From Aliiroseovarius sediminilitoris (GTDB taxonomy: Bacteria > Pseudomonadota > Alphaproteobacteria > Rhodobacterales > Rhodobacteraceae): DNA of 64,000 nucleotides. The position numbers were made by a program, and so were the translations under genes. Within the stretch, counting starts at the first letter, position 1. The number at the start of each line of letters is the position of its first letter. Under the pieces are notes generated by a model, which searched no databases, was not told where the DNA came from, and saw only the letters and a list, made by a program, of their open reading frames with translations. The DNA lies in contig NZ_FOJB01000001.1 in assembly GCF_900109955.1 (NCBI RefSeq), forward strand, positions 930,001 through 994,000. Reading direction: 5' to 3'. This document shows positions 5,732 to 49,680 of the stretch, one piece after another.

Positions 5732-5770
5732 GAAAACCTCTTTGTGACTGGGATGAAATGACCGGTCGTT

Positions 5771-5800
5771 GCCCTGCACCCATCAAGACGGATGCAGGGC
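5771..5800 (-). other. Intercistronic hairpin between dctP and dctQ
   Basis: Perfect 8-base arms GCCCTGCA (5771-5778) and TGCAGGGC (5793-5800) with a 14-base loop that can pair two further G-C pairs. It sits just after the dctP stop and before dctQ, with no T tract on the transcribed strand, so an RNA-stabilising or partially terminating element that raises receptor over permease level is more likely than a full terminator (inference). Confidence 0.6.
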
Positions 5801-5808
5801 GCGTTGAT

Positions 5809-6819: not shown

Positions 6820-6926
6820 GATTTCCTCCCAGTTGCATGCAGTCTTGTTGCGACACCATGCGATAAAATCCGGGCTTTGGCTATCCGGGAATGTGACCGC
6901 AAACACCTTCGCGTGTTGCGGCAAGG

Positions 6927-7694
6927 TTAGGCGCGCTGGATCGCCTCGCGAACGGCTCTTACACGTTCAGCATTGTCATTTGCCACACGCCCATCTGCAT
7001 GAACGCGCGCATTCTCAAACCCGACGCGGCACTTCCCGCCGCGCTGGGCGGCATAAACCAGAGACGCCGTTTCATTTTGGCCAAAGGCACAGACCGCCCA
7101 GTCGGCTGACAGGTCATGCGTGCCCATCCAGTCAAGAAAATCGTCCAGATCGTGGGGGTCCGAGTTCTGATCTGCCGCATAGCGGCCCAGAACGAACAGC
7201 AGTTGCAGATCGGGCGCGTTCAGCACGGGATCGGGCAGGGTGCGTATCAAAAGCTCCCCGTCCGCGCGGTCGTAGAGGATATGTTGGATCGCAATGTCTT
7301 GCTCCGCACAGTCGGTGTAAAACGCACGGGTGACACCCTCCGGGTCGCGGCACAGTTCGCGGATCGACGCGGATACCATGGATGCGCTCGATTGCAGGGC
7401 GATCTCACGCTGGTGGGGCGGGTCATATTTTCCGACCGCCTCTGTGGTGATCTGGATCGCCATATCGGGCACCTGAGTGGTCAATTCCTGAACCGCCTCG
7501 CGATACGCCCCTGCGTCAAGCAGGTGCCCGCCTTCTGCGTCGCGCAGATGCAGGTGCAGACCATCGGCCCCGGCCGCATGACAGTCGCGTGCGGTGGTGA
7601 CGATTTCGGACAGGGTTATCGGCAGGGCGGGATGATCGGCCTTGGTCAGGCGCGCGCCGTTTGGGGCCACCATCAGTTTCGGAAGGCGGGTCAT
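6927..7694 (-). CDS. BKACE (DUF849) beta-keto acid cleavage enzyme
   Basis: Member of the beta-keto acid cleavage enzyme family, TIM-barrel zinc enzymes that condense a beta-keto acid with acetyl-CoA and split it into acetoacetate and a new acyl-CoA. Seen here: VAPNGARLTKADHPALP at the N-terminus, the zinc motif HLHLRD, and RVGFENARV near the C-terminus, which supplies the third zinc ligand (Glu) and the conserved Arg. The usual GLEDN is GFENA, so the Asp after the metal-binding Glu is replaced. At 255 residues it is shorter than typical members (about 275-310). Its ATG overlaps the aminotransferase stop (ATGA). The exact substrate is not known; a beta-keto acid made by the aminotransferase is the natural guess. 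Confidence 0.88.
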   Translation of the reverse strand: MTRLPKLMVAPNGARLTKADHPALPITLSEIVTTARDCHAAGADGLHLHLRDAEGGHLLDAGAYREAVQELTTQVPDMAIQITTEAVGKYDPPHQREIALQSSASMVSASIRELCRDPEGVTRAFYTDCAEQDIAIQHILYDRADGELLIRTLPDPVLNAPDLQLLFVLGRYAADQNSDPHDLDDFLDWMGTHDLSADWAVCAFGQNETASLVYAAQRGGKCRVGFENARVHADGRVANDNAERVRAVREAIQRA

Positions 7695-9109: not shown

Positions 9110-9973
9110 TTGGAGAAGCGCTTCGAAAAGAGGCTCGCGTTGGCATATGCCGATCTCAGTGATGCGTTGCGCAACGCTGCGGATTTTCTTGTGGCCAACC
9201 CACTGGATGCCGTGACGCGGCCCTTGCGCACCGTGTCGCGTAACAGTGGTGTGTCGCCTGCTGCGTTCTCACGTTTGGCCAAAGCGTTGGATTACGAAGA
9301 TTTCGAAGAGCTTCGCGAAGAAATGCGCGACAAGATCGACCGCCGCGTCAACAATTTCGCGCAACGGGCCGAGCAGCTTCAAAAGCAGCATGATGATGGC
9401 CAGAACCGATTCATCGACATCCATTTCGCCGCCTGCCAATCCAATCTCAGCAACGCGCTGGCATCGCTGGATGACAAAGACCTTGAAACCTGCGTCGAGG
9501 TGTTGGTCAATGCACGCAAGGTGTTGTTGCTTGGTGCGTTGGGATCGACGGGGATCGTGGAATATATGTCCTATATGGCGAATTTCTGCACGGATAACTG
9601 GCGCCTGGCGAATCGCATGGGGACGTCATTGGGCGGGGCCTTGTCCGGGTTGGACGAGCGTGACGCGCTGTTGATTGTCACAAAACCGCCCTTTGCCTCG
9701 AACGTCATCAAGTCTGCAAAACTGGCTCATCAACTGGGCGTTTTCGTAATAGTCATCACAGATACCCATGCTTGTCCGGCGCTGGAATACGCGTCGATCA
9801 GCTTTGTGGTGGCGGCGGATAGCGCAAATTTTTATTCATCCTACGTGACGACCTTGTTCCTGATCGAAACGATCATCGGAATGGTTGTCGGACGCTCGGG
9901 TGCCGCGGCACAAGAGCGTATTGCAGAAGTCGAACTGCGCAGTCGGCAATTGGCCGAAGTGTGGTCCGAATAA
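9110..9973 (+). CDS. MurR/RpiR-family transcriptional regulator
   Basis: RpiR-type regulator: an N-terminal helix-turn-helix of the HTH_6 type ([20 protein letters not shown] then [20 protein letters not shown]) and a C-terminal SIS sugar-phosphate-binding domain ([20 protein letters not shown] and [20 protein letters not shown]). I prefer the TTG at 9110, 287 residues, since AGGGGGG lies five bases upstream and the family usually begins directly at this helix; ATGs at 9029 and 9062 lack a ribosome site and would cover the repeat operators. Divergent from the aminotransferase-BKACE-TRAP operon and only 31 bases upstream of the TAXI receptor gene, so it may control both. Effector unknown. Confidence 0.85.
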
Positions 9974-10004
9974 CATCAGAACATCAACACAAGGGAGTAT
10001 AGTG

Positions 10005-10973
10005 ATGTTGAACAGGTTCAAACTAGCATTTGTCGGGGTTGCCGCGTCGGCGGTTCTGGCCCCGGCCGCGATGGCCGAGGAGTTCATTACGATCGGCACC
10101 GGTGGTGTGACGGGCGTGTATTACCCGACAGGTGGCGCGATTTGCCGCTTGGTGAACAAGGGACGCAAAGAACACGGCGTGCGCTGCTCGGTCGAGTCGA
10201 CGGGCGGTTCTGTCTACAACATCAACACCATCCGCGAAGGCGAACTGGAATTTGGTGTTGCCCAGTCCGACTGGCAGTACCATGCCTATAACGGCACATC
10301 GCAATTTGAAGAAGCTGGCCCGTTCGAAGGGCTGCGCGCTGTATTCTCGGTTCACCCGGAACCCTTTACCGTCGTTGCGCGCGCGGATTCAGGTATCAAG
10401 ACCTTTGAGGATCTGAAGGGCAAACGCGTCAATATCGGCAACCCAGGTTCCGGCCAGCGTGGCACGATGGAAGTGTTGCTGGAAGCCATGGGCTGGACCA
10501 CCGGCGACTTCGCCCTGGCGACCGAATTGAAAGCGTCCGAGCAATCGGCGGCGCTGTGCGACAACCAGATTGACGCCATGGTCTACACCGTCGGCCACCC
10601 TTCGGGATCAATCCAGGAAGCCACCACCGCATGTGATTCCGTGTTGGTCGAGGTCGCGGGTGATGTTGTGGACAAGCTGGTTGAAGACAACTCGTTCTAT
10701 CGGACCGCCACCATTCCGGGCGGTATGTATCGCGGCAATGATGAGGACACCAAGACCTTCGGCGTCGGCGCGACTTTCGTCAGTTCGGACCAAGTGTCGG
10801 AAGATGCGGTCTATGCTGTGGTGTCGTCCGTCTTTGAAAACTTCGAGGATTTCAAAGGGCTGCACCCCGCCTTCGCCAATCTTGACCCGAAAGAGATGGC
10901 GACGGCTGGTCTGTCGGCCCCTCTGCATCCGGGCGCTGCGAAGTATTACAAAGAAAAAGGTCTGATCGAGTAA
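10005..10973 (+). CDS. TAXI-family TRAP transporter periplasmic receptor
   Basis: Secreted receptor of the TAXI type (TRAP-associated extracytoplasmic immunogenic), 322 residues. The start ATG at 10005 follows AAGGGAG and gives a signal peptide ([20 protein letters not shown], cleavage at AMA-EEF). The family signature [23 protein letters not shown] follows directly; [19 protein letters not shown] and [19 protein letters not shown] are also typical. TAXI receptors studied so far bind glutamate or 2-oxoglutarate-like acids, but ligand cannot be assigned here. A hairpin and then the fused permease gene follow. Confidence 0.93.
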
Positions 10974-10990
10974 CCTGATCTGGACAAATC

Positions 10991-11018
10991 TTTTGGGGGT
11001 GGTGCGCTGCCCCCAAAA
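10991..11018 (+). other. Intercistronic hairpin between TAXI receptor and permease
   Basis: Perfect 9-base arms TTTTGGGGG (10991-10999) and CCCCCAAAA (11010-11018), loop of 10 bases. It stands 17 bases after the receptor stop and about 90 before the permease start. No T tract follows, so it is more likely a 3'-end stabiliser or attenuator for receptor mRNA than a complete terminator. Confidence 0.6.
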
Positions 11019-11109
11019 TCCTGACCCGGCGCAAAGATCGGGCATGTGACGAAGAACGGAACCAGTGTGGGCTGCCGCCAGAAACCCCGTGCAGCCAAGG
11101 GAGGGACAG

Positions 11110-13722
11110 ATGTCCACGAAGGAAGAACGCGCACTCAGCGAAGAAGAGTTACAGGAGCTGGTTGCGGCCAGCGATACCGGCGCCCGCAGCCCGCATGGAC
11201 CGGTTGGCTTGATGATTGCCGCGGTGGCGCTGATCTGGTCGATTTTTCAGGTGCTTCTGGCCTCGCCCGTGGCGCCCTATGTGTTGCCCGGAGATCTGAT
11301 CAACAACGCGCGTCAGATACACTTGGCCTTCGCGATCTTTCTGGCTGCCATGGCTTACCCTTTGTTCAAGTCCAGTCCACGCGATTACATCCCTTGGTAC
11401 GACTGGATCCTAGGCGTCGGCGGCGCGATCCTCGCCATGTATGGATATTTTTTCTATGAGAAGATTGTCGGCAATGGCGGTCTGGCGGACGATACCGATG
11501 CGATGATTTCATTGATCGCGCTGGGTTTCCTGTTCCTTGCCGCCTATCGGACCCTCGGCCCTGTCATGGTGGCGCTGGCTGTCGTTTTCCTTTTCTATGT
11601 CTTCTTTGGTTCGTCCGAGGTTGTGCCCGACCAGATCCGCTGGGCAGGCGCGAGCTTGCGCAAAGCGATGAGCCATATGTGGATCACATCCGAAGGTGTC
11701 TTTGGCATCGCGCTGGGCGTGTCCACCAAGTTCGTGTTCCTGTTTGTCCTGTTTGGTGCGTTGCTCGACCGGGCAGGGGCGGGGAACTACTTCATCAAGA
11801 TGGCGTTCGGCGCACTGGGCCACCTGCGCGGCGGGCCTGCAAAAGCCGCTGTTGTCGGTTCGGCCGCGACCGGTCTTATTTCCGGCTCGTCGATTGCCAA
11901 CGTCGTGACCACCGGCACGTTCACCATCCCGCTGATGAAGCGTGTGGGCTTCTCGGCTGAGAAGGCAGGCGCGGTCGAGGTTGCCTCGTCCGTCAACGGA
12001 CAAATCATGCCGCCCGTCATGGGGGCTGCGGCCTTCCTGATGGTGGAATATGTCGGCATTTCATATGTCGAGGTGATCACACACGCCTTCCTGCCTGCTG
12101 TCATTTCCTACATCGCACTGGTTTACATCGTCCATCTTGAGGCGGTGAAAACCAAGATGCCGACCATTGGCGACCGGGTGGTGTCGATGGGCAAAACCAT
12201 CGGCGGCATGTTCGCCTTCTTCGCGGGCTTTGCCATCCTTTGCTATGCAACCCAATATCCGGTGGGTTGGATCACATCGCTGTTCCCGTCGGGGTCAGGT
12301 TGGGTTTTGTCGATCCTGCTTTTCGCGATCTATATTGCGCTGATCTATCTTGCCTCAAAGGTTCCGGATCTTGAGCTGGATGACCCAAATGCAGCGGTTG
12401 TCGAACTGCCGGACGTGGCAAAGATCTACAAGTCGGGCCTTTACTACATGCTGCCGATCATCGTTCTGGTCTATTTCCTGATGATCGAGCGGAAATCGCC
12501 CGGCCTGTCGGCCTTCTGGGCCACCTTCCTGCTGTTCGGCATTCTGCTGACACAGAAATCGCTGAAAGCCATGTTCCGAGGCGAAAGCGATGTGGTGGCG
12601 CGTTTGCGCGAAGGGGTGAAAGATCTGATCGAAGGCATGATCGACGGTGCGCGCAACATGATCGGCATTGGTCTGGCCACGGCCACGGCGGGTATCATTG
12701 TGGGCACCGTGTCACTGACCGGGATTGGTCAGGTGATGGCAGATTTTGTCGAGTTCCTGTCGGGCGGCAACCTGATCCTGATGCTGGTCTTCGTGGCGAT
12801 CCTGTCGCTGATCCTTGGGATGGGCTTGCCGACGACGGCGAATTATATCGTCGTGTCCTCGTTGATGGTGTCGGTCGTGGTCGAATTGGGCGCGCAGTCC
12901 GGGCTGGTCGTGCCACTGATCGCAGTGCACCTCTTCGTGTTCTACTTCGGGATCATGGCGGATGTGACGCCACCTGTGGGGCTGGCGAGTTTCGCGGCAG
13001 CGGCGGTGTCGGGAGGTGACGCGATCCGCACCGGCTTCACCGCGTTTTTCTATAGCCTTCGGACGGTGGCCCTGCCGTTTGTGTTCATCTTCAACACCGA
13101 CCTTCTGCTGATCGACGTGACGATAACGCAGGGCATTATCGTCTTCATTGTCTCGACCATCGGTATCCTCGTCTTTACGGCAGGCACGATGGGCTGGTTC
13201 CTGACCAAGTCGCGCATCTGGGAGACCGTGGCGCTATTGGTGGTGGCCTTCGCGCTGTTCCGGCCAGGCTTCTTCATGAACCAGATCCAGCCGCCTTTTG
13301 AGAAAATTCCGCCCGCACAGTTCGCAACAGCACTGGAAGATGCGTCGCCGGGTGATCAACTGCGTGCGGTGATCCGTGGCCCGGACTTCGACACGTTGGA
13401 CAGCAAAGACCTGACCGTCGTGTTTGATGTGCCGGACGAGGCTGACGCTCAGGCGCGGTTGGACGGGCTTGGCTTAGTGCTGGTCCCGGAGGGCGATACG
13501 ATCAAGCTGGACGAGCCGATGTTCGGCACCTTCCTGTCCGAAAAGCTCGCATCGTTTGACTTCTATGGCGATGAACCTGTGCAAATCGCGGCGGTTCAAG
13601 CGCCGTCCAACCAACTTCCGAAAGAGCTGATCTTCATTCCGGCGCTGCTGCTGCTGGCCCTTGTGGCCTTCCTGCAATCACGTCGGGCCGAAGATGAAAC
13701 ACCGCAAGGAGAACTGGCATGA
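11110..13722 (+). CDS. Fused TRAP permease (DctQ-DctM type, with DUF3394 tail)
   Basis: Single-chain TRAP permease, 870 residues, in which a four-helix small-subunit region (about residues 30-180) is joined to the large transport domain. The signatures TGLISGSSIANVVTTGTFTI and LILGMGLPTTANYIVVSSL, with ADVTPPVGLASFAAAAVSGG, mark the DctM part. The C-terminal region (about residue 700 on) is a DUF3394-like soluble segment between two last membrane segments. The ATG at 11110 follows GGGAGGGACAG; a start at 11065 lacks this. It works with the TAXI receptor upstream and overlaps the universal stress protein gene by four bases. Confidence 0.93.
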   Translation: MSTKEERALSEEELQELVAASDTGARSPHGPVGLMIAAVALIWSIFQVLLASPVAPYVLPGDLINNARQIHLAFAIFLAAMAYPLFKSSPRDYIPWYDWILGVGGAILAMYGYFFYEKIVGNGGLADDTDAMISLIALGFLFLAAYRTLGPVMVALAVVFLFYVFFGSSEVVPDQIRWAGASLRKAMSHMWITSEGVFGIALGVSTKFVFLFVLFGALLDRAGAGNYFIKMAFGALGHLRGGPAKAAVVGSAATGLISGSSIANVVTTGTFTIPLMKRVGFSAEKAGAVEVASSVNGQIMPPVMGAAAFLMVEYVGISYVEVITHAFLPAVISYIALVYIVHLEAVKTKMPTIGDRVVSMGKTIGGMFAFFAGFAILCYATQYPVGWITSLFPSGSGWVLSILLFAIYIALIYLASKVPDLELDDPNAAVVELPDVAKIYKSGLYYMLPIIVLVYFLMIERKSPGLSAFWATFLLFGILLTQKSLKAMFRGESDVVARLREGVKDLIEGMIDGARNMIGIGLATATAGIIVGTVSLTGIGQVMADFVEFLSGGNLILMLVFVAILSLILGMGLPTTANYIVVSSLMVSVVVELGAQSGLVVPLIAVHLFVFYFGIMADVTPPVGLASFAAAAVSGGDAIRTGFTAFFYSLRTVALPFVFIFNTDLLLIDVTITQGIIVFIVSTIGILVFTAGTMGWFLTKSRIWETVALLVVAFALFRPGFFMNQIQPPFEKIPPAQFATALEDASPGDQLRAVIRGPDFDTLDSKDLTVVFDVPDEADAQARLDGLGLVLVPEGDTIKLDEPMFGTFLSEKLASFDFYGDEPVQIAAVQAPSNQLPKELIFIPALLLLALVAFLQSRRAEDETPQGELA

Positions 13723-38552: not shown

Positions 38553-40523
38553 ATGTCGTCGGAAAACACGGCCGATAAAACTTATGCTCCGTCAGCTGAG
38601 TTTGTCGCGAACGCTCATATTGATGCTGCGAAATACAAAGAGATGTATGCCGCTTCGGTGAACGACCCGGAAGCGTTCTGGTCCGATCAGATGACACGAC
38701 TGACATGGTCCAAGACCCCCACCAAGATCAAGAATACCACCTTCAAGCATCCGGATGTGTCGATCAAGTGGTTCGAGGACGGCGAGTTGAATGTCTCGGA
38801 AAACTGTATTGACCGCCACCTGGACACACGCGGGGATCAGGTCGCGATCATCTGGGAATCCGACGACCCCACCCTGGACAAGAAAATCACCTATCGCGAA
38901 CTCCACGAAAATGTGTCGAAGCTGGCCAATGTGATGAAGGGGATGGGCGTCAAGAAGGGCGACCGCGTTGTGCTCTATCTTCCCATGATCCCCGAGGCTG
39001 CTTATTCAATGCTGGCCTGCGCGCGGATTGGTGCGATCCACTCGATTGTTTTTGCGGGTTTCTCGCCTGAAGCACTGGCGGCGCGTGTCGCAGGTTGCGA
39101 GGCGTCGTTGGTTATCACAGCCGACGAAGCCCCGCGTGGCGGGCGCAATACGCCCCTGAAAACCAACGTGGATGCGGCACTGGATCATGGCGACCTTGGC
39201 AATACCCCGGTTCTGGTGGTTGAACGCACGGGCGGCGATGTGCCGATGGTTGCCGGGCGCGATCATTCCTATGCCGCGCTGATGGCAGACGCGTCTGCCG
39301 ATTGCCCTGCCGAGCGGATGAATTCAGAAGACCCGCTGTTCATCCTTTACACGTCTGGCTCGACCGGTCAGCCGAAGGGCGTTCAGCATTGTTCCGGCGG
39401 CTATCTGCTGTGGGCCGCGATGACCCATGAGTATGTGTTCGATTATCACGAGGGCGACATCTATTGGTGCACCGCTGATGTGGGCTGGGTCACTGGCCAT
39501 AGCTATATCGTCTATGGCCCGCTGGCCAATGGCGCGACCACGCTGATGTTCGAAGGTGTGCCGACCTATCCTGATGCGGGCCGGTTCTGGGCCGTGTGTG
39601 AAAAGCACAAGGTGAACCAGTTCTATACCGCACCGACAGCCATCCGCGCCTTGATGGCCCGTGGCGAGGATTTCGTCACCAAATACGACCTGTCCGACCT
39701 CAAGGTATTGGGCACTGTGGGCGAGCCGATCAACCCCGAAGCATGGAATTGGTACAATGACGTTGTCGGCAAGGGCAAATGTCCCATCGTTGACACGTGG
39801 TGGCAGACAGAAACCGGCGGTCATTTGTTGACCCCTCTGCCCGGTGCGACTCCGACCAAACCCGGATCGGCCACGACGCCGTTCTTCGGCGTGCAGCCGG
39901 TGATCCTTGAGCCCACCACGGGCGAAGAGATCACCAGCACCGAGGCCGAGGGCGTGTTGTGCATGAAAGACAGCTGGCCCGGCCAGATGCGCACGATTTT
40001 TGGCGATCACAAGCGTTTCGTGGCGACCTATTTCGCCGACTACAAAGGCTATTACTTCACCGGTGACGGTTGCCGCCGCGATGCGGATGGATATTACTGG
40101 ATCACCGGTCGCGTGGACGATGTGATCAACGTCTCCGGCCACCGCATGGGCACCGCCGAGGTCGAAAGCGCGCTGGTGGCGCATCCCAAAGTGTCCGAAG
40201 CGGCCGTGGTCGGCTTCCCGCACGACATCAAGGGGCAGGGTATCTATTGCTACGTCACCCTGATGGACGGCGAGGAATACACCGACGATCTGAAGACCGA
40301 GTTGCGCAACTGGGTGCGTCAGGAGATCGGCCCAATTGCCAGCCCGGATTACATCCAGTGGGCACCGGGCCTGCCGAAAACCCGTTCAGGCAAGATCATG
40401 CGCCGCATTCTGCGCAAGATCGCCGAGGATGATTTTGGCGCGCTGGGCGACACATCGACACTGGCCGATCCGTCGGTGGTGGATGATCTGATCGACAACC
40501 GCATGGCCAAGGACAAAGCATGA
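38553..40523 (+). CDS. acs: Acetyl-CoA synthetase (AMP-forming)
   Basis: Full-length acetate:CoA ligase, 656 residues, making acetyl-CoA, AMP and pyrophosphate. A3 loop [11 protein letters not shown], acetate pocket Trp in [44 protein letters not shown] hinge, and Lys in [13 protein letters not shown], the lysine used for acetylation control. ATG at 38553 has GGGAGG upstream. The stop overlaps the adenylate kinase start (ATGA), coupling production of AMP with its recycling. Followed by a symporter and signalling genes, forming an acetate uptake and activation cluster. Confidence 0.96.
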
Positions 40524-41266: not shown

Positions 41267-41527
41267 ATGGCCGAAAACTCATCCAACTCAGCATATTGGT
41301 CTGCCAATGTGCGCATCATTTTGATCAGCCTCGTGATATGGGCGCTGGTTTCCTTCGGGTTCGGCATCCTGCTGCGCCCAATGCTGTCCGGGATCGCCGT
41401 CGGCGGAACCGATTTGGGCTTCTGGTTTGCTCAGCAGGGGTCGATCATCGTCTTCCTCATTCTGATCTTCAACTATGCCTGGCGCATGAACAAGCTCGAC
41501 CGTGAACACGGCGTCGACGAAGAGTAA
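41267..41527 (+). CDS. DUF4212 small symporter subunit
   Basis: Small membrane protein, 86 residues, with two membrane segments (about residues 16-37 and 52-70) and a short charged C-terminus, matching the DUF4212/TIGR03647 family, which is always found directly before a VC_2705-type sodium:solute symporter. GGGAGG precedes the ATG. Fifteen bases separate it from the symporter gene. Thought to be an accessory subunit of that carrier; its role is not established. Confidence 0.92.
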   Translation: MAENSSNSAYWSANVRIILISLVIWALVSFGFGILLRPMLSGIAVGGTDLGFWFAQQGSIIVFLILIFNYAWRMNKLDREHGVDEE

Positions 41528-41542
41528 GGGAGACTGGAATAC

Positions 41543-43330
41543 ATGGATCAGTTTACACTTAACTGGCTGTTTATCGGCGCGAGCTTCGCACTGTATATCG
41601 GCATCGCAATCTGGGCCCGTGCGGGCTCGACATCAGAATTCTATGCCGCAGGGCGTGGCGTTCACCCCGTCACCAACGGGATGGCAACGGCGGCTGACTG
41701 GATGTCGGCGGCCTCGTTCATTTCAATGGCTGGCCTTATCGCCTTCACCGGCTATGACAACTCGACCTATCTGATGGGTTGGACCGGCGGCTATGTGCTT
41801 CTGGCCCTGCTGCTTGCGCCTTACCTGCGCAAGTTCGGCAAATACACCGTGTCGGAATTTATCGGCGATCGCTTCTACAGCCAGACGGCGCGTATCGTGG
41901 CCGTTATCTGTCTGATCGTTGCCTCGACCACATACGTTATCGGTCAGATGACTGGTGTTGGCGTGGCCTTCGGTCGCTTCCTTGAGGTCGACAACACGAC
42001 AGGTCTGCTGATCGGCGCAGCGGTTGTGTTCGCATATGCCGTGTTTGGCGGCATGAAAGGCGTGACCTATACGCAGGTGGCCCAATATGTCGTGTTGATT
42101 ATGGCCTATACCATTCCGGCCATCTTCATCTCGCTGCAACTGACCGGCAACCCGATCCCGGCCCTCGGTCTGTTCGGTGATCACGCAGCATCTGGCGAGC
42201 CTCTGTTGGCCAAGCTGGACGCGATTGTGACAGAACTGGGCTTCAATGAATATACTGCCCACTACGGCGATACGTTCAATATGCTGCTGTTCACACTGTC
42301 GCTGATGATCGGTACGGCTGGTCTGCCGCACGTTATCATGCGCTTCTTCACTGTTCCCAAAGTGTCCGACGCGCGTTGGTCCGCGGGCTGGGCGCTGGTG
42401 TTCATCGCGCTGCTTTACCTGACAGCCCCTGCCGTTGGTGCCATGGCACGTCTGAACATCTCGGAAATGATGTGGCCCAATGGCGGCATCGAAGGTGGCG
42501 CTGTGACCGTTCAGCAGATCGAAGAAGATCAGCGCTATGATTGGATGGAAACCTGGCAGAAAACCGGCCTTCTGGGCTGGGAAGACAAGAACGGCGATGG
42601 TGCGATCCAGTACTATAACGACTCCAACGCTGAACTTCAGGCCATCGCTGCCGAAAAAGGCTGGGCCGGTAACGAACTGACCAACTTCAACCGTGATATC
42701 CTGGTTCTGGCTAACCCTGAGATTGCCAACCTACCCGGTTGGGTGATCGGTCTGGTTGCAGCTGGTGGTCTTGCAGCCGCGCTGTCGACCGCTGCCGGTT
42801 TGCTACTTGCGATCTCGTCGGCTGTATCGCACGATCTGATCAAAGGTTCGTTCAATCCGGGCATCTCGGAAAAAGGTGAGCTATTGTCAGCACGTATTGC
42901 CATGGCCGTTGCGATTGTTGTTGCAACCTATCTGGGTCTTAATCCTCCGGGCTTCGCGGCACAAACCGTGGCACTTGCCTTTGGTCTGGCAGCTGCGTCG
43001 ATTTTCCCGGCGCTGATGATGGGTATCTTCTCGACCAAGGTGAACAACTCCGGCGCGGTTGCCGGTATGTTGGCGGGTCTGACCGTTACCTTGATCTACA
43101 TCTTCATGCACAAAGGTTGGTTCTTCATCCCGGATACGAACAGCTTCACCGATGCTGATCCGCTTCTGGGTACGGTCAAGTCGACTTCGTTCGGCGCGAT
43201 CGGTGCTGCGATCAACTTTGCGGTGGCCTATGTTGTGTCGGGTATGACCAAAGAAACGCCTGCACATATTCAGGAACTGGTTGAATCGGTTCGCGTTCCG
43301 CGCGGCGCCGGTGCGGCACAGAACAAGTAA
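41543..43330 (+). CDS. Sodium:solute symporter, VC_2705/ActP-like
   Basis: SSS-family carrier, 595 residues, about 13 membrane segments. EFYAAGRGVHPVTNGMATAADWMSAASFISMAG is family-typical, as is GLAAALSTAAGLLLAISSAVSHDL. By context with acs it probably imports acetate or another short monocarboxylate with sodium. An unusual hydrophilic loop near residues 310-385 contains DKNGDGAIQYYN (residues 348-359), resembling an EF-hand calcium loop. A strong terminator follows the gene. Confidence 0.92.
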   Translation: MDQFTLNWLFIGASFALYIGIAIWARAGSTSEFYAAGRGVHPVTNGMATAADWMSAASFISMAGLIAFTGYDNSTYLMGWTGGYVLLALLLAPYLRKFGKYTVSEFIGDRFYSQTARIVAVICLIVASTTYVIGQMTGVGVAFGRFLEVDNTTGLLIGAAVVFAYAVFGGMKGVTYTQVAQYVVLIMAYTIPAIFISLQLTGNPIPALGLFGDHAASGEPLLAKLDAIVTELGFNEYTAHYGDTFNMLLFTLSLMIGTAGLPHVIMRFFTVPKVSDARWSAGWALVFIALLYLTAPAVGAMARLNISEMMWPNGGIEGGAVTVQQIEEDQRYDWMETWQKTGLLGWEDKNGDGAIQYYNDSNAELQAIAAEKGWAGNELTNFNRDILVLANPEIANLPGWVIGLVAAGGLAAALSTAAGLLLAISSAVSHDLIKGSFNPGISEKGELLSARIAMAVAIVVATYLGLNPPGFAAQTVALAFGLAAASIFPALMMGIFSTKVNNSGAVAGMLAGLTVTLIYIFMHKGWFFIPDTNSFTDADPLLGTVKSTSFGAIGAAINFAVAYVVSGMTKETPAHIQELVESVRVPRGAGAAQNK

Positions 43331-43377: not shown

Positions 43378-43411
43378 TGTCCCGTCCGGTGCACACCGGG
43401 CGGGACATTTT
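43378..43411 (+). terminator. Rho-independent terminator after the symporter
   Basis: Arms TGTCCCGTCCGGT (43378-43390) and ACCGGGCGGGACA (43395-43407), 13 pairs with one G-U, loop GCAC, followed by TTTT. Only 23 bases before the next gene on the same strand, so the downstream signalling genes rely on readthrough or on a promoter within or beyond the symporter gene. Confidence 0.8.
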
Positions 43412-43433: not shown

Positions 43434-45269
43434 ATGCCGTTGACCCAGGACCAGATCCTTCGTTTCTTGCAATCCGTGCACCCCTATGACGTCCTGCCAC
43501 AGGACACGTTGGCTACGCTTGCTGCGCAGATCGAGCCACGTGCCGTTGCATCCGGCGATCCCATTTACGAGCTGGGCGACAAGCTGCCGGGCATCTTCAT
43601 CATTCATGCGGGCGAGGTCGAGGTTACAGACGAAAACGGCGAGACCGTCAGCCAGTTGGGTGTGCGCAATTCATTCGGCGAACGTGGCCTGTTGCGGGAC
43701 GGTCGCGCGGTGACCAAGACGCAGGCGGTGACGGAGGCAATCTTGCTGATCCTGCCCGTTGACGCATTCCGGGACCTGATCAAAACCCATGACCCCGTGC
43801 GCCGGTTCTTTGACCGTTCCCGCGCAGACAGGCAGGGCAAACAAAGTCAGCAAAGCCTTGCCACCACGCAGGTTGATACGTTCATGGCCCGCAATCCGAT
43901 CACCTGCGCGCCGGATGCAACGGTGCGTGATGCCGCCATCCTGATGCGTGACCATCGGGTGTCGTCACTGTGCATGACCGACGGGGACACGCTGACCGGC
44001 ATCCTGACCACCCGTGATATGTCGGGCAAAGTGGTCGCCGAGGCCTTGCCCAGCGACACCCTTGTTTCCGCTGTTATGACGCCCAATCCCATCACGCTGG
44101 CCCCTTCTGCGATCGGGTCGGACGTGTTGCATGTGATGATGGAAAAACGCATCGGACATCTGCCCATCGTCGAAGGTGACAAGCTGGTTGGCATCGTCAG
44201 CCAAACGGATCTGACGCGGTTTCAGGCTGTCAGCTCAGCCGAGTTGGTGCGCGAGTTGGCGCAAGCCGTCGATGCGCTGGAAATGCGCGCCGTGACGAAA
44301 CGCATTCCGCAACTTCTGGTGCAGCTTGTCGCGGGTGGAAGCCCCCATCAGGTCGTGACCCGCCTGATCACCGATATTGCCGACACCGCCACCCGCCGTC
44401 TGGTCGCACTGGCCGAAGAAAAACTCGGCCCTGCCCCCGTGCCTTACCTGTGGCTGGCCTGTGGCAGCCAGGGGCGGCAGGAACAAACCGGCGTGTCAGA
44501 TCAGGACAATTGCCTGATCCTGTCCGATGACGTGAGTGACGCGGATCGCGATGGCTATTTCTCCGAACTGGCGAAGTTCGTCTGTGACGGGCTGGACACT
44601 TGCGGCTATGTCTATTGCCCCGGTGACATGATGGCCAGCAACCCGCGCTGGCGCCAGCCGCTATCGGTTTGGCGTGGTTATTTTGAAGGGTGGGTCGCCA
44701 AGCCCAGCCCGGAAGCGCAAATGCTGGCCTCGGTCATGTTTGATCTGCGTCCGATTGCGGGTGACGCGCGGCTGTTTGGCTCTTTGCAGACGGACACGTT
44801 GGCGATGGCCGCAAAGAATTCGATCTTCGTGGCGCATATGGTGTCAAATGGTCTGAAGCACACGCCTCCGCTGGGGCTGTTGCGCGGGTTTGCAACCATT
44901 CGGACGGGCGAACACAAGAACCGCCTGGACATGAAACACAACGGCGTCGTGCCCATCGTTGATCTGGGCCGTATTTATGCGCTGCAAGGGCAATTGACCG
45001 AGGCTAACACGCGGGCGCGGCTGGTCGCGGCCATGAATGCCGGCGGTCTGAGTCAATCCGGCGGGCAGGACCTGTTGGATGCCTATGACCTGATTGCCGA
45101 AACTCGGCTGGAACATCAGGCCGAGCAGGTGAAAGAAGGGCAGGCGCCTGACAATTATCTGGCACCGTCCGCGCTGTCAGAATTTGATCGCAGCCATCTT
45201 CGTGATGCGTTTGTTGTCGTGAAATCAATGCAAAGTGCCATTGGGCATGGGCGCGGAATGCTAAGCTGA
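43434..45269 (+). CDS. cNMP-binding/CBS/DUF294 nucleotidyltransferase-like signalling protein
   Basis: Cytoplasmic multidomain protein, 611 residues. Order: cyclic-nucleotide-binding-like domain (about 15-130; GDPIYELGDKLPGIFIIHAGEVEV), CBS pair (about 145-265; MARNPITCAPDATVRDAAIL and VMTPNPITLAPS), a DUF294 nucleotidyltransferase-like domain with ACGSQGRQEQTGVSDQDN, where the G-S and D-x-D metal site is intact as in GlnD, and DUF294_C helices. Such proteins accompany SSS symporters and DnaQ-like exonucleases in many proteobacteria; target and ligand are unknown. Start at 43434 with AAAAGG upstream. Confidence 0.9.
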   Translation: MPLTQDQILRFLQSVHPYDVLPQDTLATLAAQIEPRAVASGDPIYELGDKLPGIFIIHAGEVEVTDENGETVSQLGVRNSFGERGLLRDGRAVTKTQAVTEAILLILPVDAFRDLIKTHDPVRRFFDRSRADRQGKQSQQSLATTQVDTFMARNPITCAPDATVRDAAILMRDHRVSSLCMTDGDTLTGILTTRDMSGKVVAEALPSDTLVSAVMTPNPITLAPSAIGSDVLHVMMEKRIGHLPIVEGDKLVGIVSQTDLTRFQAVSSAELVRELAQAVDALEMRAVTKRIPQLLVQLVAGGSPHQVVTRLITDIADTATRRLVALAEEKLGPAPVPYLWLACGSQGRQEQTGVSDQDNCLILSDDVSDADRDGYFSELAKFVCDGLDTCGYVYCPGDMMASNPRWRQPLSVWRGYFEGWVAKPSPEAQMLASVMFDLRPIAGDARLFGSLQTDTLAMAAKNSIFVAHMVSNGLKHTPPLGLLRGFATIRTGEHKNRLDMKHNGVVPIVDLGRIYALQGQLTEANTRARLVAAMNAGGLSQSGGQDLLDAYDLIAETRLEHQAEQVKEGQAPDNYLAPSALSEFDRSHLRDAFVVVKSMQSAIGHGRGMLS

Positions 45270-45299
45270 CGCTTGGCGCGTGCAATGGAAGGAATGTGA

Positions 45300-45830
45300 A
45301 TGTTTTACGAGATTGTCGCCACGCTGGTCTCTGCCTTTGTTGGTGCGGGTTTGGTTCTCGCCCTGAACAAGCTGACCGGGGGCAGGTTGCCGAAATGGGC
45401 GATGCCGGTTGGGGCAGGGCTTGCCATGATTGTGACGACAGTTGCCACCGAATACGCGTGGTACGACCGCACGAAGGAGATTCTGCCCGAAGGGATGACC
45501 GTGGTGATGGAGGTCGAGAACAAATCGCTCTATCGTCCCTGGACTTACGTGGTGCCCTTTGTCGAGCGTTTCGTTGCGCTGGACGAGCAATCATTGCGCA
45601 CGCACCAAGCCCAACCGGCTTTGCGGATGGTCGATCTGCTGTTCATGGGACGATGGTCTGCACCCGAGAGAATGGTGGTCCTGGGAAACTGCGACACCGG
45701 TCAACGGGCGCCACTGATTGACGCGGTCGAATTTGATGCATCGGGACAGGTCAAGGGAGTCGACTGGGTCAAGGTGCCGGAAGACGACGCCATCCTGGCA
45801 GCCATATGCAAACTTGAGGTGACATCATGA
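45300..45830 (+). CDS. Hypothetical protein with N-terminal membrane segments
   Basis: 176 residues, not recognised. Two hydrophobic segments (about residues 4-26 and 33-50) are followed by a soluble part with PLYRPWTYVVPFVERF-like text (exact: NKSLYRPWTYVVPFVERFVA) and FMGRWSAPERMVVLGNCDTG. A GGAAGGA site precedes the ATG. It is placed between the DUF294 signalling gene and the membrane exonuclease gene, overlapping the latter by four bases, which suggests a shared function in this module. No enzymatic motif is visible. Confidence 0.75.
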   Translation: MFYEIVATLVSAFVGAGLVLALNKLTGGRLPKWAMPVGAGLAMIVTTVATEYAWYDRTKEILPEGMTVVMEVENKSLYRPWTYVVPFVERFVALDEQSLRTHQAQPALRMVDLLFMGRWSAPERMVVLGNCDTGQRAPLIDAVEFDASGQVKGVDWVKVPEDDAILAAICKLEVTS

Positions 45831-47242
45831 AAATTCTAACCACCCTGTCTTTGCGCCTGCGGATATTTCTGTTTTTCGCACTTTTGGCTGTCTGTGGGGT
45901 GGGTCTGGTACTGGTGTCGCTGGCAATCGGTTATGCGCGTGCGCAAGCAACCGGGCTGGCATCGGGGTTCGTTTTTGCCGGGGTGTTGTCCGGATTTGGC
46001 CTGCTGGCACTGTCTGTGGGCGTTTGGTTTTTGTTCGATGAGAACGTTGCGCGCCCGATTGAGCGGTTGGCAACAGGCCTGCGATCGCGTGCTCATGCGG
46101 GGGCCGGGGGTGTGGACAAACATGCTGCGCGCTATCTGGGTGATCTGGCCCCGGCGGCGGAAGCGGTGTCCGAGCAGTTGATGAAATCCACCATGGATCA
46201 GGCCAGCATCGTCGCATCGGAAACCGCGCGGCTGTCCGCGGACAAGGCGCGGCTGACCGCGCTTCTGTCTGAAATCCCGGTGGCGATGATCCTGGTGAAC
46301 CCGGCGCACCAGATCGTGCTTTACGACAAGCAGGCGGCTGGCGTGCTGTCACAGGTCTGCCCGCCGCGCTTGAATGCCTCGATCTTCGATTACTTCAAGA
46401 AGGGACCTTTTCTTGCGGCACACAAGAAGATGATGGCGACGGGGCTTGAGCAGAGCTTCACAGATCTTGCCGCCGCCAATGGGTTGGAGTTTGACGCTCG
46501 GCTGAAGCCTCTTGGCCCCGGCGACGGGTATCTGGTCATCATTGACGACGCCCATACCAATATCGCCCCCGATCAAAGCCGCCCCGTGGTGTTCGACTTT
46601 GATCTGATGGAGGGACAGGCCACTGACAACCTGATGGATATGCAGCTAAACGACCTGAGTTACGTCGTGTTCGACACGGAAACCACCGGGCTGTTGCCGC
46701 ACAAGGATGAGGTGGTTCAGATCGGCGCTGTGCGGGTCGTGAAAGGCAAGATCGTGCCGGGTGAGATCGTCAATCAACTTGTCGATCCGGGCATGAAGAT
46801 CCCGCCTGCCTCGACCAAGGTGCATGGCGTGACAAACGCGATGGTGGCAGGGCAGCCGGGTATTGATGTGGCGGGCAAGCACCTGCATGACTTTGCACGC
46901 GGGGCGGTTCTTGTGGCGCATAACGCCCCGTTCGATATGGCCTTCCTGCGGCGACATGCGGAAACCTGCGGGGTGGAATGGACCCATCCGATCCTTGATA
47001 CGGTGCTGTTGTCGGCGGTGCTTTACGGCACGACCGAGGTGCACACACTGGACGCCCTGTGCGAACGGCTGGGCGTGACCATCCCGCCCGAGCTACGCCA
47101 CACGGCGCTGGGCGATGCCCATGCCACTGCCGAAGTTCTGTGCAAGATGCTGGCCATGCTGCATTCGCGTGGGATCGAAACCTTGGCAGGCGCCATTGCC
47201 GAAGCCAAGAAGCACAAGCGATTGTTGGACGATCTGAATTGA
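45827..47242 (+). CDS. Membrane-anchored PAS-DnaQ exonuclease fusion
   Basis: 471 residues joining a sensor-like front to a nuclease. Two membrane segments (about 10-35 and 45-70), a HAMP-like linker (ENVARPIERLATGLRSRAHAG), a coiled region, a PAS-like domain (about 145-245; LLSEIPVAMILVNPAHQIVL), then a DEDDh 3'-5' exonuclease domain (about 278-460). Exonuclease motifs are complete: VVFDTETTGL (Exo I), NAPFDMAFLRRH (Exo II) and HTALGDAHATAEVL (Exo III His and Asp). Relatives near DUF294 proteins are mostly plain soluble exonucleases; here the domain sits where a histidine kinase would be. Substrate, RNA or DNA, is unknown. Confidence 0.9.
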   Translation: MKILTTLSLRLRIFLFFALLAVCGVGLVLVSLAIGYARAQATGLASGFVFAGVLSGFGLLALSVGVWFLFDENVARPIERLATGLRSRAHAGAGGVDKHAARYLGDLAPAAEAVSEQLMKSTMDQASIVASETARLSADKARLTALLSEIPVAMILVNPAHQIVLYDKQAAGVLSQVCPPRLNASIFDYFKKGPFLAAHKKMMATGLEQSFTDLAAANGLEFDARLKPLGPGDGYLVIIDDAHTNIAPDQSRPVVFDFDLMEGQATDNLMDMQLNDLSYVVFDTETTGLLPHKDEVVQIGAVRVVKGKIVPGEIVNQLVDPGMKIPPASTKVHGVTNAMVAGQPGIDVAGKHLHDFARGAVLVAHNAPFDMAFLRRHAETCGVEWTHPILDTVLLSAVLYGTTEVHTLDALCERLGVTIPPELRHTALGDAHATAEVLCKMLAMLHSRGIETLAGAIAEAKKHKRLLDDLN

Positions 47243-47257
47243 CGCGGGCGTCGCTTG

Positions 47258-48028
47258 TCAGCGACTTTCATCCGCATTCATCTTGCGCTCCAACCACCGC
47301 ACACCCGCCGAGATAATCAGGACCAATACCAGATACTCAAGGATCAGCAGCGTATAGATTTCCAGCGGCCGGTATTCGGTGACGACCAATTCATTGGCCC
47401 GGCGGGTCAGTTCTGCCATTCCGATCACGGACGCGAAGGCGGACATTTTTACGATATAGATGAACTGGTTGGCCAACGGCGGCAGGATGCGCCGCACCGC
47501 TTGCGGCAGGATGACATAGCGCATTGCCTGCGCCCGACTCAGCCCGATGGTCTGCGCGGCCTCGGCCTGTCCGCGCGGGACAGCCTGAATGCCGGACCGG
47601 AAGATCTCGGCAGTAAACGCACTGTCCGAGAGGGCCAGCGTGATCACCGCGCCCCAGAACGGGTCGATGTTGAGGTTGACGCCCATGGAGCGCAACACGA
47701 CCGGCAAGCCGTAATATACCCAAAACAGCATCGGCAGCAGGGGGATTGCCCGAATAATCTCGACATAGATGCGGTTGGGCAGGCGCAACCAACGGCTTTG
47801 GGCGAAAGCGGGCAGGGCAACAAGCAGGCCGACGATGATCGACGCGACCGCCGCCAAAACCGAGATCTGGATGGTCGCCGAAAACCCTCGCAGCAGAAAC
47901 TTGATATTGGTCCAACCCGCCGTGGTAGACGGGTCAATCACATACCAGCCCCACGTCCCCGGCGGGGCCGAGCAGGCGACCAAGGTGAAGAGCGAAAGAA
48001 GCGCAAGCGACAGGCGGATTTTGGTCAT
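47258..48028 (-). CDS. Amino-acid-type ABC transporter permease
   Basis: HisM/GlnP-family permease, 256 residues from the ATG at 48028 (AGGGG six bases upstream; another ATG at 48034). Membrane region starts near residue 40 (GFSATIQISVLAAVASIIVG); EAA loop GQAEAAQTIGLSRAQAMRYV. The N-terminus reads LSLFTLVACSAPPGTWGW, which looks like a lipoprotein signal with Cys19, unusual for a permease. Encoded after the ATPase; the receptor gene is divergent. Only one permease gene is present, so a homodimer is expected. Confidence 0.9.
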   Translation of the reverse strand: MTKIRLSLALLSLFTLVACSAPPGTWGWYVIDPSTTAGWTNIKFLLRGFSATIQISVLAAVASIIVGLLVALPAFAQSRWLRLPNRIYVEIIRAIPLLPMLFWVYYGLPVVLRSMGVNLNIDPFWGAVITLALSDSAFTAEIFRSGIQAVPRGQAEAAQTIGLSRAQAMRYVILPQAVRRILPPLANQFIYIVKMSAFASVIGMAELTRRANELVVTEYRPLEIYTLLILEYLVLVLIISAGVRWLERKMNADESR

Positions 48029-48037
48029 CGTCATCCC

Positions 48038-48775
48038 CTAATGCTTCAAAATCTTGTCCAGAAACTGCGCGAACCGGGCAGATTTCGGCGAAGAAAAGGC
48101 GATTTCGGGCGAGTCAACCTCGACCACCTCTCCGGCATCCATGAAGGCGATGCGGTCGGCCACCCGGCGCGCGAACCCCATTTCGTGGGTCACGCAGATC
48201 ATCGTCATACCGTCGCGGGCCAGATCTTCCATTACTTCCAATACTTCGGCGATCATCTCGGGGTCGAGCGCAGATGTGGGTTCGTCAAACAACATCAGTT
48301 TCGGATCCATGCACAGAGAACGGGCAATCGCCACCCGTTGCTGCTGGCCGCCAGACAGTTGGCCGGGACGTTTCATTGCCTGTTCAGGGATGCGGACACG
48401 TTCCAGATAGGCCATGGCACGGTCGCGGGCTTCCAGCTTGGGCATCCCCAAAGCGCGCATCGGGCCAAGGATCAAATTGTCCAGAACGGTCAGGTGGGGA
48501 AACAGGTTAAACTGTTGAAACACCATGCCAATATCGCCGCGTCCTTGTGCATCTACGGGCTGTCCGTAAAGTGTGATGGTGCCTTCCTGATGTTTTTCCA
48601 ATCCGGCCAGAAGCCGCACGACGGTGGACTTCCCCGACCCAGACGGGCCGCAGATCACCAGCTTTTCACCATGGTCCACCTCCAGCGTGATGTCGCGCAA
48701 CACCTGAAAATCGTCGTACCACTTGCTGACATGCGCCATGGTGATCGCGTGCTTGCCTTGGTTAATGTTCGCCAC
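48038..48775 (-). CDS. Amino-acid-type ABC transporter ATPase
   Basis: GlnQ/HisP-type ATPase, about 245 residues. Walker A GPSGSGKST, Q-loop VFQQFNLFPHLTV, signature LSGGQQQRVAIARSL, Walker B LMLFDEPTSALDP, H-loop CVTHEMGFARRVADR. I place the start at the GTG 48775 (ANINQGKHAIT...); a TTG at 48802 and an ATG nearer the domain are alternatives and none has a clear ribosome site. Nine bases before the permease gene. Powers uptake of a polar amino acid or similar ligand bound by the divergently encoded receptor. Confidence 0.92.
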   Translation of the reverse strand: MANINQGKHAITMAHVSKWYDDFQVLRDITLEVDHGEKLVICGPSGSGKSTVVRLLAGLEKHQEGTITLYGQPVDAQGRGDIGMVFQQFNLFPHLTVLDNLILGPMRALGMPKLEARDRAMAYLERVRIPEQAMKRPGQLSGGQQQRVAIARSLCMDPKLMLFDEPTSALDPEMIAEVLEVMEDLARDGMTMICVTHEMGFARRVADRIAFMDAGEVVEVDSPEIAFSSPKSARFAQFLDKILKH

Positions 48776-48906
48776 TTGTTCTATTGCCCGCGATCTGTTC
48801 AACTGATCGTGAGCGGCTCATCCAAGTGCTGCCTCGATCCGTAGTCTGTTTGTTAAGGTATACGGACAAGCAACGAACTTGATAACCACCAAAAGGACAC
48901 CGCGCG

Positions 48907-49680
48907 ATGAAGTTACTGCGAACACTTGGGGCCGGGCTGCTGGCAATGACGATGCTGGCAGGCGGGGCGCAAGCCCAGTCCGCCCTGAATGACATTCTTT
49001 CCGGCGGCGTCCTGAAGGTGGGCACGACCGGAGACTGGAACCCGATGACGATGAAAGACCCAGCCACGGACAGCTACCGCGGCTATGACATCGACATCAT
49101 GACCGAACTGGCCAAGGACCTCGAGGTCAATCTGGAATTTGTTCCCACCGATTGGAAAACACTGGTGAACGGGATCGTGGCGGGCAAGTATCACATGACC
49201 GGCTCTGCCTCGATTTCGCCGTCGAGGATGAAGGTGGCGGGGTATTCCGAACCCTATATTTCGGTGCAAATTCTGCCGTTTACCACGTCTGACAAGGTGG
49301 GGAACTATGACGGCTGGGATGCAATCAACAAGCCTGACGTGAAGGTGGCAACAACGCTTGGCACTTCGTTCGAAGGGATGGTGCGCAGCTGGTTCCCGGA
49401 AGCCGACATCAAGGTGGTCGAAGCGCCCGCCCGTGGCTATCAAGAGGTTCTGGCCGGTCGCGCCGATGTCTTCATCACCTCGAACATCGAAGGTGCCACC
49501 CTGACCGAGAAGTTTCCGCAAGTGGCCGCCATCCCTGTCGACGCGCCGCGCGCGCCGACACCGATTGCGATGCTGTTGCCGCAAGGCGATCAGGTGTGGA
49601 TCAACTATGTGAACAGTTGGGTGAAGCTGAAGAAGGAACAGGGCTTCTTTATGGAAACCGCCGCGAAATGGGGTCTGTGA
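48907..49680 (+). CDS. Family-3 ABC transporter substrate-binding protein
   Basis: Secreted receptor, 257 residues, SBP_bac_3 fold; signal peptide MKLLRTLGAGLLAMTMLAGG, cleavage near AQA-QSA. Mature start LNDILSGGVLKVGTTGDWNP, then DSYRGYDIDIMTELAKDLEV and YHMTGSASISPSRMKVAGYS. These features resemble cyclohexadienyl-dehydratase-like and amino acid receptors. Divergent from the ATPase/permease genes across about 104-130 bases that must contain both promoters. A terminator follows immediately, so it is a one-gene unit. Confidence 0.9.
   Translation: MKLLRTLGAGLLAMTMLAGGAQAQSALNDILSGGVLKVGTTGDWNPMTMKDPATDSYRGYDIDIMTELAKDLEVNLEFVPTDWKTLVNGIVAGKYHMTGSASISPSRMKVAGYSEPYISVQILPFTTSDKVGNYDGWDAINKPDVKVATTLGTSFEGMVRSWFPEADIKVVEAPARGYQEVLAGRADVFITSNIEGATLTEKFPQVAAIPVDAPRAPTPIAMLLPQGDQVWINYVNSWVKLKKEQGFFMETAAKWGL

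Follow-up and report, generated by a model that had tools for sequence, protein, structure and literature searches.

A 64,000-nt stretch of contig NZ_FOJB01000001.1 of Aliiroseovarius sediminilitoris (the window, to whose positions all coordinates refer) encodes, at 43434–47242, a cyclic nucleotide-binding/CBS/DUF294 protein, a small membrane protein and a membrane-bound sensor-exonuclease. Genome comparisons indicated that the DUF294 protein and the exonuclease are a tightly coupled pair. We tentatively favour the reading that they act oppositely on one substrate in the uptake or use of carbon acids, with the DUF294 protein as the writer and the exonuclease as the eraser of a nucleotide mark. 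The three open reading frames (ORFs) claimed in an initial annotation of this DNA were real, with lengths of 611, 176 and 471 amino acids (aa). Its observations were confirmed, and its interpretation was partly supported.

Co-occurrence of the DUF294 protein and the exonuclease

Among 149 genomes of the family, 80 matched the exonuclease at E ≤ 1e-20; 73 of these (E 1.1e-46 or lower) were taken as orthologues and the seven weaker ones were dropped, including two (G014 and G059) that were fusions. The DUF294 protein matched 83 genomes, of which 75 (>96 bits) were kept and eight weak matches were dropped. Both genes were present in 72 genomes, the exonuclease only in one, DUF294 only in three and neither in 73. 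This presence of DUF294 in 72 of the 73 exonuclease genomes strongly confirmed the co-occurrence on which the initial annotation had staked its proposal. The three DUF294-only genomes were G014 and G059, in which a single ORF comprised both exonuclease and DUF294, and G087, with only a DUF294 fragment, at a contig end. In the single exonuclease-only genome (G067), the active site of the exonuclease was altered. The two genes were not always adjacent: they lay approximately 5 kb apart in G023 and on different contigs in G118.

Gene order was compared in the best 80 of at least 579 contigs matching the exonuclease protein, a sample of the nearest clade (hereafter close loci). The DUF294, middle protein and exonuclease genes were consecutive on one strand in 80/80 close loci. 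They were preceded by a DUF4212 gene and a symporter gene in all 74 loci with room for these, and by acs, adk, DUF4212 and the symporter in 47 of the 48 with room for seven genes, as expected of the conserved, acs-linked module of signalling type that had been proposed. In the sole exception (L113), acs and adk were not there. Of the 149 family genomes, 74 encoded DUF4212, and 72 of these belonged to the 75 with DUF294.

Outside the family, 83 DUF294 regions were examined, 27 of them among the best 30 loci and 56 that followed in order of E-value, with two places in one region. An exonuclease was near in 26 of the first 27 DUF294_C places, within 1.5 kb in 25; it was found on a wider stretch (L198) for the genome of L180, and the genome of L163 had none even on 10 kb (L197). 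The next 56 regions, on stretches mostly of 8.5 kb, contained an exonuclease in 51 cases, at L253 approximately 3 kb off and on the other strand. The exonuclease was thus present in 77/83 regions, compared with a chance rate estimated at a few percent at most from the one to three matches per genome. The two proteins also occurred as single ORFs, with the exonuclease, two CBS domains and DUF294 detected by Pfam in L143, L146, L151 and L152 (4/4), and the exonuclease and DUF294 detected with our own profiles in L199 and L200, giving six single-ORF fusions in all.

Domain composition of the pair

The DUF294 protein matched the Pfam families cNMP_binding (50.6 bits, cut-off 27.5), CBS (two copies), DUF294 (161 bits) and DUF294_C (154 bits). 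The nucleotidyltransferase metal site, previously described as intact, was found with the motif GSxxRxE...DQDN in 77/77 full-length orthologues from the close loci and in 35/38 more distant DUF294 ORFs; of the exceptions, L118 had D in place of E, and L138 and one of the two ORFs of L147 were without the motif. At L147, two DUF294-like genes (5769–7271 and 9649–11148) flanked one sensor-exonuclease, the second without a recognisable DQDN. By sequence, the window protein has a GlnD/GlnE-like metal site (GSxxRxE...DxD); GlnD carries a GS...D-x-D nucleotidyltransferase motif of polymerase-beta type.

RNase_T was the sole Pfam match in the exonuclease protein (115.2 bits, cut-off 24). All five catalytic residues (D283, E285, D370, H425 and D430) were present, and the description of the domain as a complete DEDDh exonuclease was correct. 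In 71 full-length close orthologues, the motifs D-x-E and HNAPFD were found in 71 each and a strict RHTA[LMI]GD in 67. The nearest Foldseek matches of the domain were the PolC and epsilon exonucleases (best E 1.4e-13). Fold and catalytic residues were closest to those of PolC, epsilon, DinG and RNase T, from which the window exonuclease differed in being part of a membrane-anchored receptor and of this operon. The seven best-matching contigs for the protein, six of them from Aliiroseovarius, were 77–94% identical. At L142 (8274–9782), an EamA-type transporter was apparently fused to a like exonuclease, adjoining a DUF294 gene on the other strand.

NCBIfam placed the domain among DnaQ-type families, and DNA polymerase epsilon-like is a common annotation of solo copies, as would suit an ordinary repair or proofreading enzyme that stands in the operon by chance. 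Such an enzyme would not be expected to have a membrane-bound, PAS-like front, unbroken synteny across the close loci or fusions with DUF294. In addition, the genome contained another exonuclease-like gene (33% identical to that of the window), and a solo homologue has a phenotype on pyruvate (PMC9927547). We regard this explanation as extremely improbable.

According to a further explanation, the product of the DUF294 protein is a short nucleotide messenger, which in its linear form is degraded by the exonuclease. The pair would then serve synthesis and breakdown, the receptor being part of the degrading enzyme; some DEDDh enzymes cleave dinucleotides, and one match was named 'ancestor of diDNase' (E 0.0023). 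However, no messenger-synthase family was matched by the DUF294 protein in Pfam or NCBIfam, and a messenger appears improbable.

Sensor part of the exonuclease and its descent

The AlphaFold model of the sensor-exonuclease (44 sequences, mean predicted local distance difference test (pLDDT) score 78.9, approximately 90 in the exonuclease part and 55–75 in the linker) consisted of a pair of long helices, a linker that was also helical, strands and helices in a PAS-like order at residues 153–244 and the exonuclease. The pattern at 153–244 was strand-helix-strand, similar to that of PAS domains. The window protein itself had no PAS match in Pfam at E ≤ 1. Among relatives, searched as two sets (A1, 14 proteins; A2, 18 proteins including that of the window), PF00989 (PAS) matched 9/14 proteins of A1 and 12/18 of A2, and PAS_8 matched 10/14 of A1. 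Window residues 5–208 shared 46% identity with the front part of a longer protein of the family (G007, locus L116), and residues 152–255 of this longer protein matched PAS_4 at 23.8 bits (cut-off 23.1). The homologous relative and the model topology indirectly point to a PAS domain in the window protein. A HAMP domain was rejected: at E ≤ 1, none of the 31 relatives of A1 and A2 matched HAMP in Pfam, nor did the window protein, and the model showed only helix-gap-helix at that position, in a region of low confidence. Of the HAMP- and PAS-like front described initially, the PAS part was thus recovered through relatives and the model, and the HAMP part was not confirmed by the profile search that had been set beforehand as the test.

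The two membrane helices and the PAS-like domain resemble those of sensor histidine kinases. The kinase parts (a DHp domain with its phospho-acceptor His and an ATPase domain) were absent from the window protein according to Pfam and the model, and its output domain is the exonuclease instead. In 14 longer relatives (670–773 aa; family and class samples), approximately 212–241 residues separated the PAS domain from the exonuclease. Searched singly with Pfam, these relatives matched HisKA in 2/14 (best E 5e-4) and HATPase_c in 1/14 (E 0.15); their joint profile matched solved histidine kinases over the DHp and ATPase parts (best E 1.2e-8). In the profile alignment to ZraS, from which the catalytic columns were read, the phospho-acceptor His and the N-box Asn were missing in 14/14 and the ATPase-site Asp was Trp in 14/14. 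The relatives thus keep a dead kinase-like core between PAS and nuclease, in agreement with the earlier view of a nuclease where a sensor kinase has its kinase. The phylum sample yielded 14 further kinase-core exonucleases, from three families outside the class. Trp was found in the matching ATPase motif of 14/14, and the His position was Glu in the 10/14 where the script located the DHp motif. A suspicion that the very strong exonuclease matches of approximately 700 aa were acs was rejected, as they matched the exonuclease and 14 were kinase-core exonucleases. At six loci outside the family (L222, L230, L243, L248, L250 and L252), a kinase-core exonuclease and DUF294 lay beside acs and a distant symporter-like protein (31–33% identical), possibly a CrbS-type sensor.

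In exonuclease-domain trees of 73 and 87 rows, 18 short kinase-less proteins and seven kinase-core proteins formed one starred clade, nested in a wider group with many kinase-core proteins. Two changes were needed for the short label. The simplest reading suggested by the trees is that the window lineage lost a dead kinase core already present in its ancestor. A kinase-free ancestor of the sensor-exonucleases is also compatible with the trees, which included 10 other rows labelled as PAS-exonuclease without the core and needed 5–6 changes for the kinase-core label.

Exonuclease copies without catalytic residues

Within the genus of G067, five genomes were compared (G067, G612, G613, G614 and G615). 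In G067, G612 and G615 (loci L190, L191 and L192), a copy of the sensor-exonuclease directly followed acs-adk, and no symporter, DUF294 or middle protein gene was found in the stretch around these three copies. All three had lost four of the five catalytic residues (D283S, D370R, H425R and D430Q) and kept E285. Copies beside DUF294 (G613 and the second copy of G615) were intact, G614 had neither exonuclease nor DUF294, and in G067 and G612 DUF294 was not found anywhere in the genome. In this genus, nuclease catalysis appears to go with a DUF294 gene next door.

The dead exonuclease domains were 60–72% identical among the three species and their front parts 49–57%; being more conserved than the front, the dead domain seems to have been kept as a pseudo-enzyme. 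This conservation would be in line with a system in which the sensor part does the work, with the nuclease fold serving chiefly to bind a nucleotide or a protein. Such a role is highly improbable for the pair in general, given the retention of the catalytic motifs in the full-length close orthologues.

Known systems and proposed function

The pair is not undescribed, as the initial annotation had supposed. In Pseudomonas putida KT2440, pp_0354 and pp_0353 form one operon, the first gene coding for a protein with CBS domains and the second for an RNase_T protein. The promoter of pp_0354 is a binding site of ErdR, and the operon belongs to the MxtR/ErdR (= CrbS/CrbR) acetate regulon (PMC9927547). 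In Pseudomonas fluorescens, a passage of PMC5715377 places Pflu5625, a cAMP-binding/CBS/nucleotidyltransferase protein, under CrbS/R. The DUF294–exonuclease pair is therefore already known but unexplained in Pseudomonas. As in P. putida, where it is tied to acetate regulation and pyruvate use (PMC9927547), the pair in the window consists of a DUF294 protein with CBS domains and an RNase_T protein, with one small gene between. Unlike pp_0354/pp_0353, the window pair has its exonuclease fused to a membrane/PAS-like sensor, is part of an acs-adk-DUF4212-symporter cluster and encloses an extra membrane protein. Among the best matches of a literature search, no PAS- or kinase-fused exonuclease of this kind was found and no paper on the seven-gene cluster; the dead-kinase receptor with an exonuclease output, the kinase loss in the window lineage and the conserved pseudo-exonuclease were likewise not met there.

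The comparisons above provide, at the level of sequence, the domains and their order, the co-occurrence and fusions, the kinase-like core of the relatives and a dead paralogue away from DUF294. The coupling, together with the fusions and the dead paralogue, leads us to infer a common substrate for both enzymes; which way each reaction runs, what is modified and what signal is sensed are likewise proposals. The DUF294 protein would attach a nucleotide, most likely a nucleoside monophosphate (NMP), to a protein from the machinery that takes up or activates acetate/pyruvate, triggered by its cNMP and CBS domains, which would report the nucleotide or energy state. The DEDDh domain would remove the mark by hydrolysing the 5'-NMP phosphodiester. 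In the window lineage, the eraser would be a membrane receptor in which the helices and the PAS-like domain, of histidine-kinase-type sensor origin, control the exonuclease, and the small two-helix middle protein would be its probable periplasmic partner. The symporter and its small subunit, ahead of the triplet in 74/74 close loci with room, were counted as the link to uptake.

Reversible marking by the uridylyl- and adenylyltransferases GlnD/GlnE offers a parallel. The likeness of the DUF294 protein to these enzymes lies in the metal-site motif, in the proposed reversible marking and in its C-terminal domain, as DUF294_C is grouped with the GlnD/GlnE C-terminal domains in a passage of PMC3710099. 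In contrast to both, the window protein has cNMP and CBS sensing domains, and the proposed remover is a separate or fused DEDDh exonuclease rather than a second transferase domain (PMC12663964) or an HD domain. Since a 5'-NMP on a protein hydroxyl is held by the same kind of phosphodiester that DEDDh enzymes cut at a 3' end, the exonuclease could erase a mark made by the DUF294 protein. RNase Z, a ribonuclease, is described in PMC12663964 as a deAMPylase that removes AMP from proteins in the SelO system; this is a precedent for the logic alone, as the nuclease differs and the writer is the pseudokinase SelO. On pyruvate, the P. putida pp_0353 (exonuclease) mutant was impaired and the pp_0354 (DUF294) mutant was not (PMC9927547), a one-sided phenotype that would fit an inhibitory mark, for which loss of the eraser alone has consequences.

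Several observations weigh against a writer and an eraser of a shared mark. On 20 mM acetate, both P. putida deletion mutants grew without impairment (PMC9927547), and the pflu5625 (DUF294) mutant had no phenotype (PMC5715377). Neither a target nor a modified protein has been described, and the literature passages report no enzyme activity. Regarding the coupling, the Fisher p of 1e-37 for co-occurrence in the family is uncorrected for shared ancestry, two family genomes had DUF4212 without DUF294, and 6/83 DUF294 regions examined outside the family had no exonuclease. The loss of catalytic residues in the three copies probably goes back to a single event, and G615 (78% complete) has DUF294 elsewhere, beside its second, intact exonuclease. 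Finally, RNA ends would serve equally well as the substrate of the pair.

RNA ends are the basis of the main rival, a membrane-tethered RNA decay or 3'-end editing in which certain mRNAs or small RNAs from carbon metabolism would be trimmed by the exonuclease, while the DUF294 protein adds nucleotides to the same ends. The exonucleases of PolC, epsilon, DinG and RNase T, closest in fold, act on DNA or RNA ends, and coupling to a nucleotidyltransferase suits tailing and trimming as well. In a passage of PMC9927547, the P. putida authors speculated on mRNA decay for the pair. The cNMP and CBS domains and the C-terminal domain grouped with GlnD/GlnE (PMC3710099) seem, however, nearer to protein nucleotidylation than to tailing enzymes, and, apart from the nuclease, no RNA-binding domain was detected by Pfam in the three proteins of the window. 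On balance, we consider a role on RNA ends unlikely.

Organization of the locus

All seven genes of the cluster were on the + strand, in the order acs, adk, DUF4212, VC_2705-family symporter, hairpin, DUF294, middle protein and sensor-exonuclease (Table 1).

Table 1. Features of the cluster and of the sensor-exonuclease in the window
Feature	Coordinates	Strand	Evidence
acs, acetyl-CoA synthetase (AMP-forming)	38553..40523	+	Pfam ACAS_N, AMP-binding, AMP-binding_C
adk, adenylate kinase, one of two adk genes found in the genome	40520..41206	+	Pfam ADK, ADK_lid
Small symporter subunit (DUF4212)	41267..41527	+	PF13937 E 1.6e-34; TIGR03647 114 bits, cut-off 26
Sodium/solute symporter, VC_2705 family	41543..43330	+	TIGR03648 818.7 bits, cut-off 320.75
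Terminator-like hairpin between symporter and DUF294 gene	43378..43407	+	13-pair stem
DUF294 protein gene (cNMP-CBS-CBS-DUF294-DUF294_C), proposed writer	43434..45269	+	Pfam; 611 aa
Small membrane protein gene, proposed periplasmic partner	45300..45830	+	176 aa; model, no Pfam
Membrane sensor-exonuclease gene, proposed eraser	45827..47242	+	471 aa; Pfam, model, Foldseek
Two predicted membrane helices, ~residues 9–70	45851..46036	+	model helices 9–42, 44–91; span inferred from composition
PAS-like domain, residues 151–245	46277..46561	+	model secondary structure; relatives match PAS profiles
DEDDh exonuclease domain (RNase_T), residues 280–438	46664..47140	+	PF00929 E 5.8e-33; Foldseek

In its model (pLDDT 94.2), the middle protein has a beta domain in addition to two predicted membrane helices. 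The loop between the helices is basic, which suggests that the beta domain faces the periplasm, and on this model the protein is the probable periplasmic partner of the sensor-exonuclease, whose gene start overlaps the middle gene by 4 bases. C131 and C170 were invariant in 45 sequences. Pfam gave no match for the window protein and no convincing family for the 45 members; matches to PsbJ in 16/45 (best E 0.003) were taken as a likeness of membrane helices. A profile search for a solved homologue returned weak matches alone (best E 0.41). Haemophilus influenzae protein E, at a best Foldseek E of 8.6e-3 and a template-modelling (TM) score under 0.5, was not used as a classification. Homologues of the middle protein (31–35% identical) were found outside the family near DUF294 and a 72–73% identical symporter in L197, L203, L208 and L211, one without a nearby exonuclease and three with a short one. 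The middle protein thus seems to belong with the symporter and DUF294 rather than with the fusion.

The symporter fell far under the cut-offs of the ActP models (188 bits, cut-off 750; 156 bits, cut-off 1099), and acetate specificity derived from these equivalog/subfamily models was rejected. Acetate as its substrate is suggested by the presence of acs in the cluster, the symporter itself being of the VC_2705 family. The window adk kept its place between acs and the symporter in 47/48 relatives with room and may recycle the AMP made by Acs; the second adk (G000:C1:597334–597978) was 51% identical to it.

The terminator reported before the module was found as a hairpin with counterparts in 11/11 relatives folded, across other genera. 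In Shimia (L044), it showed a compensatory change, with one pair altered on both sides. A second GC-rich hairpin lay directly upstream. Downstream of the module, the ATP-binding cassette (ABC) transporter genes at 47258–49680 were rejected as a part of it, since a permease >60% identical adjoined the module in only 6/80 relatives. A 529-aa open frame at 47255–48844 (+), antisense to two ABC transporter genes, looks spurious.

Implications

The full proposal combines these elements: a receptor descended from histidine kinases, having first an inactivated kinase and later none, would erase through its exonuclease output the marks set by a cNMP/CBS-gated DUF294 protein, and reversible nucleotidylation at the membrane would gate acetate/pyruvate uptake or activation across Pseudomonadota. 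In this complete form, the proposal is doubtful. The uncharacterised pair often found beside acetate/pyruvate genes in Pseudomonadota proves to be a tightly coupled transferase–exonuclease pair, and in many members a dead-kinase receptor is fused to the nuclease. If the exonuclease does erase a nucleotide mark, it would represent a new class of erasers, and the sensor-exonuclease would be a membrane receptor that works by the removal of a nucleotide instead of by phosphorylation.

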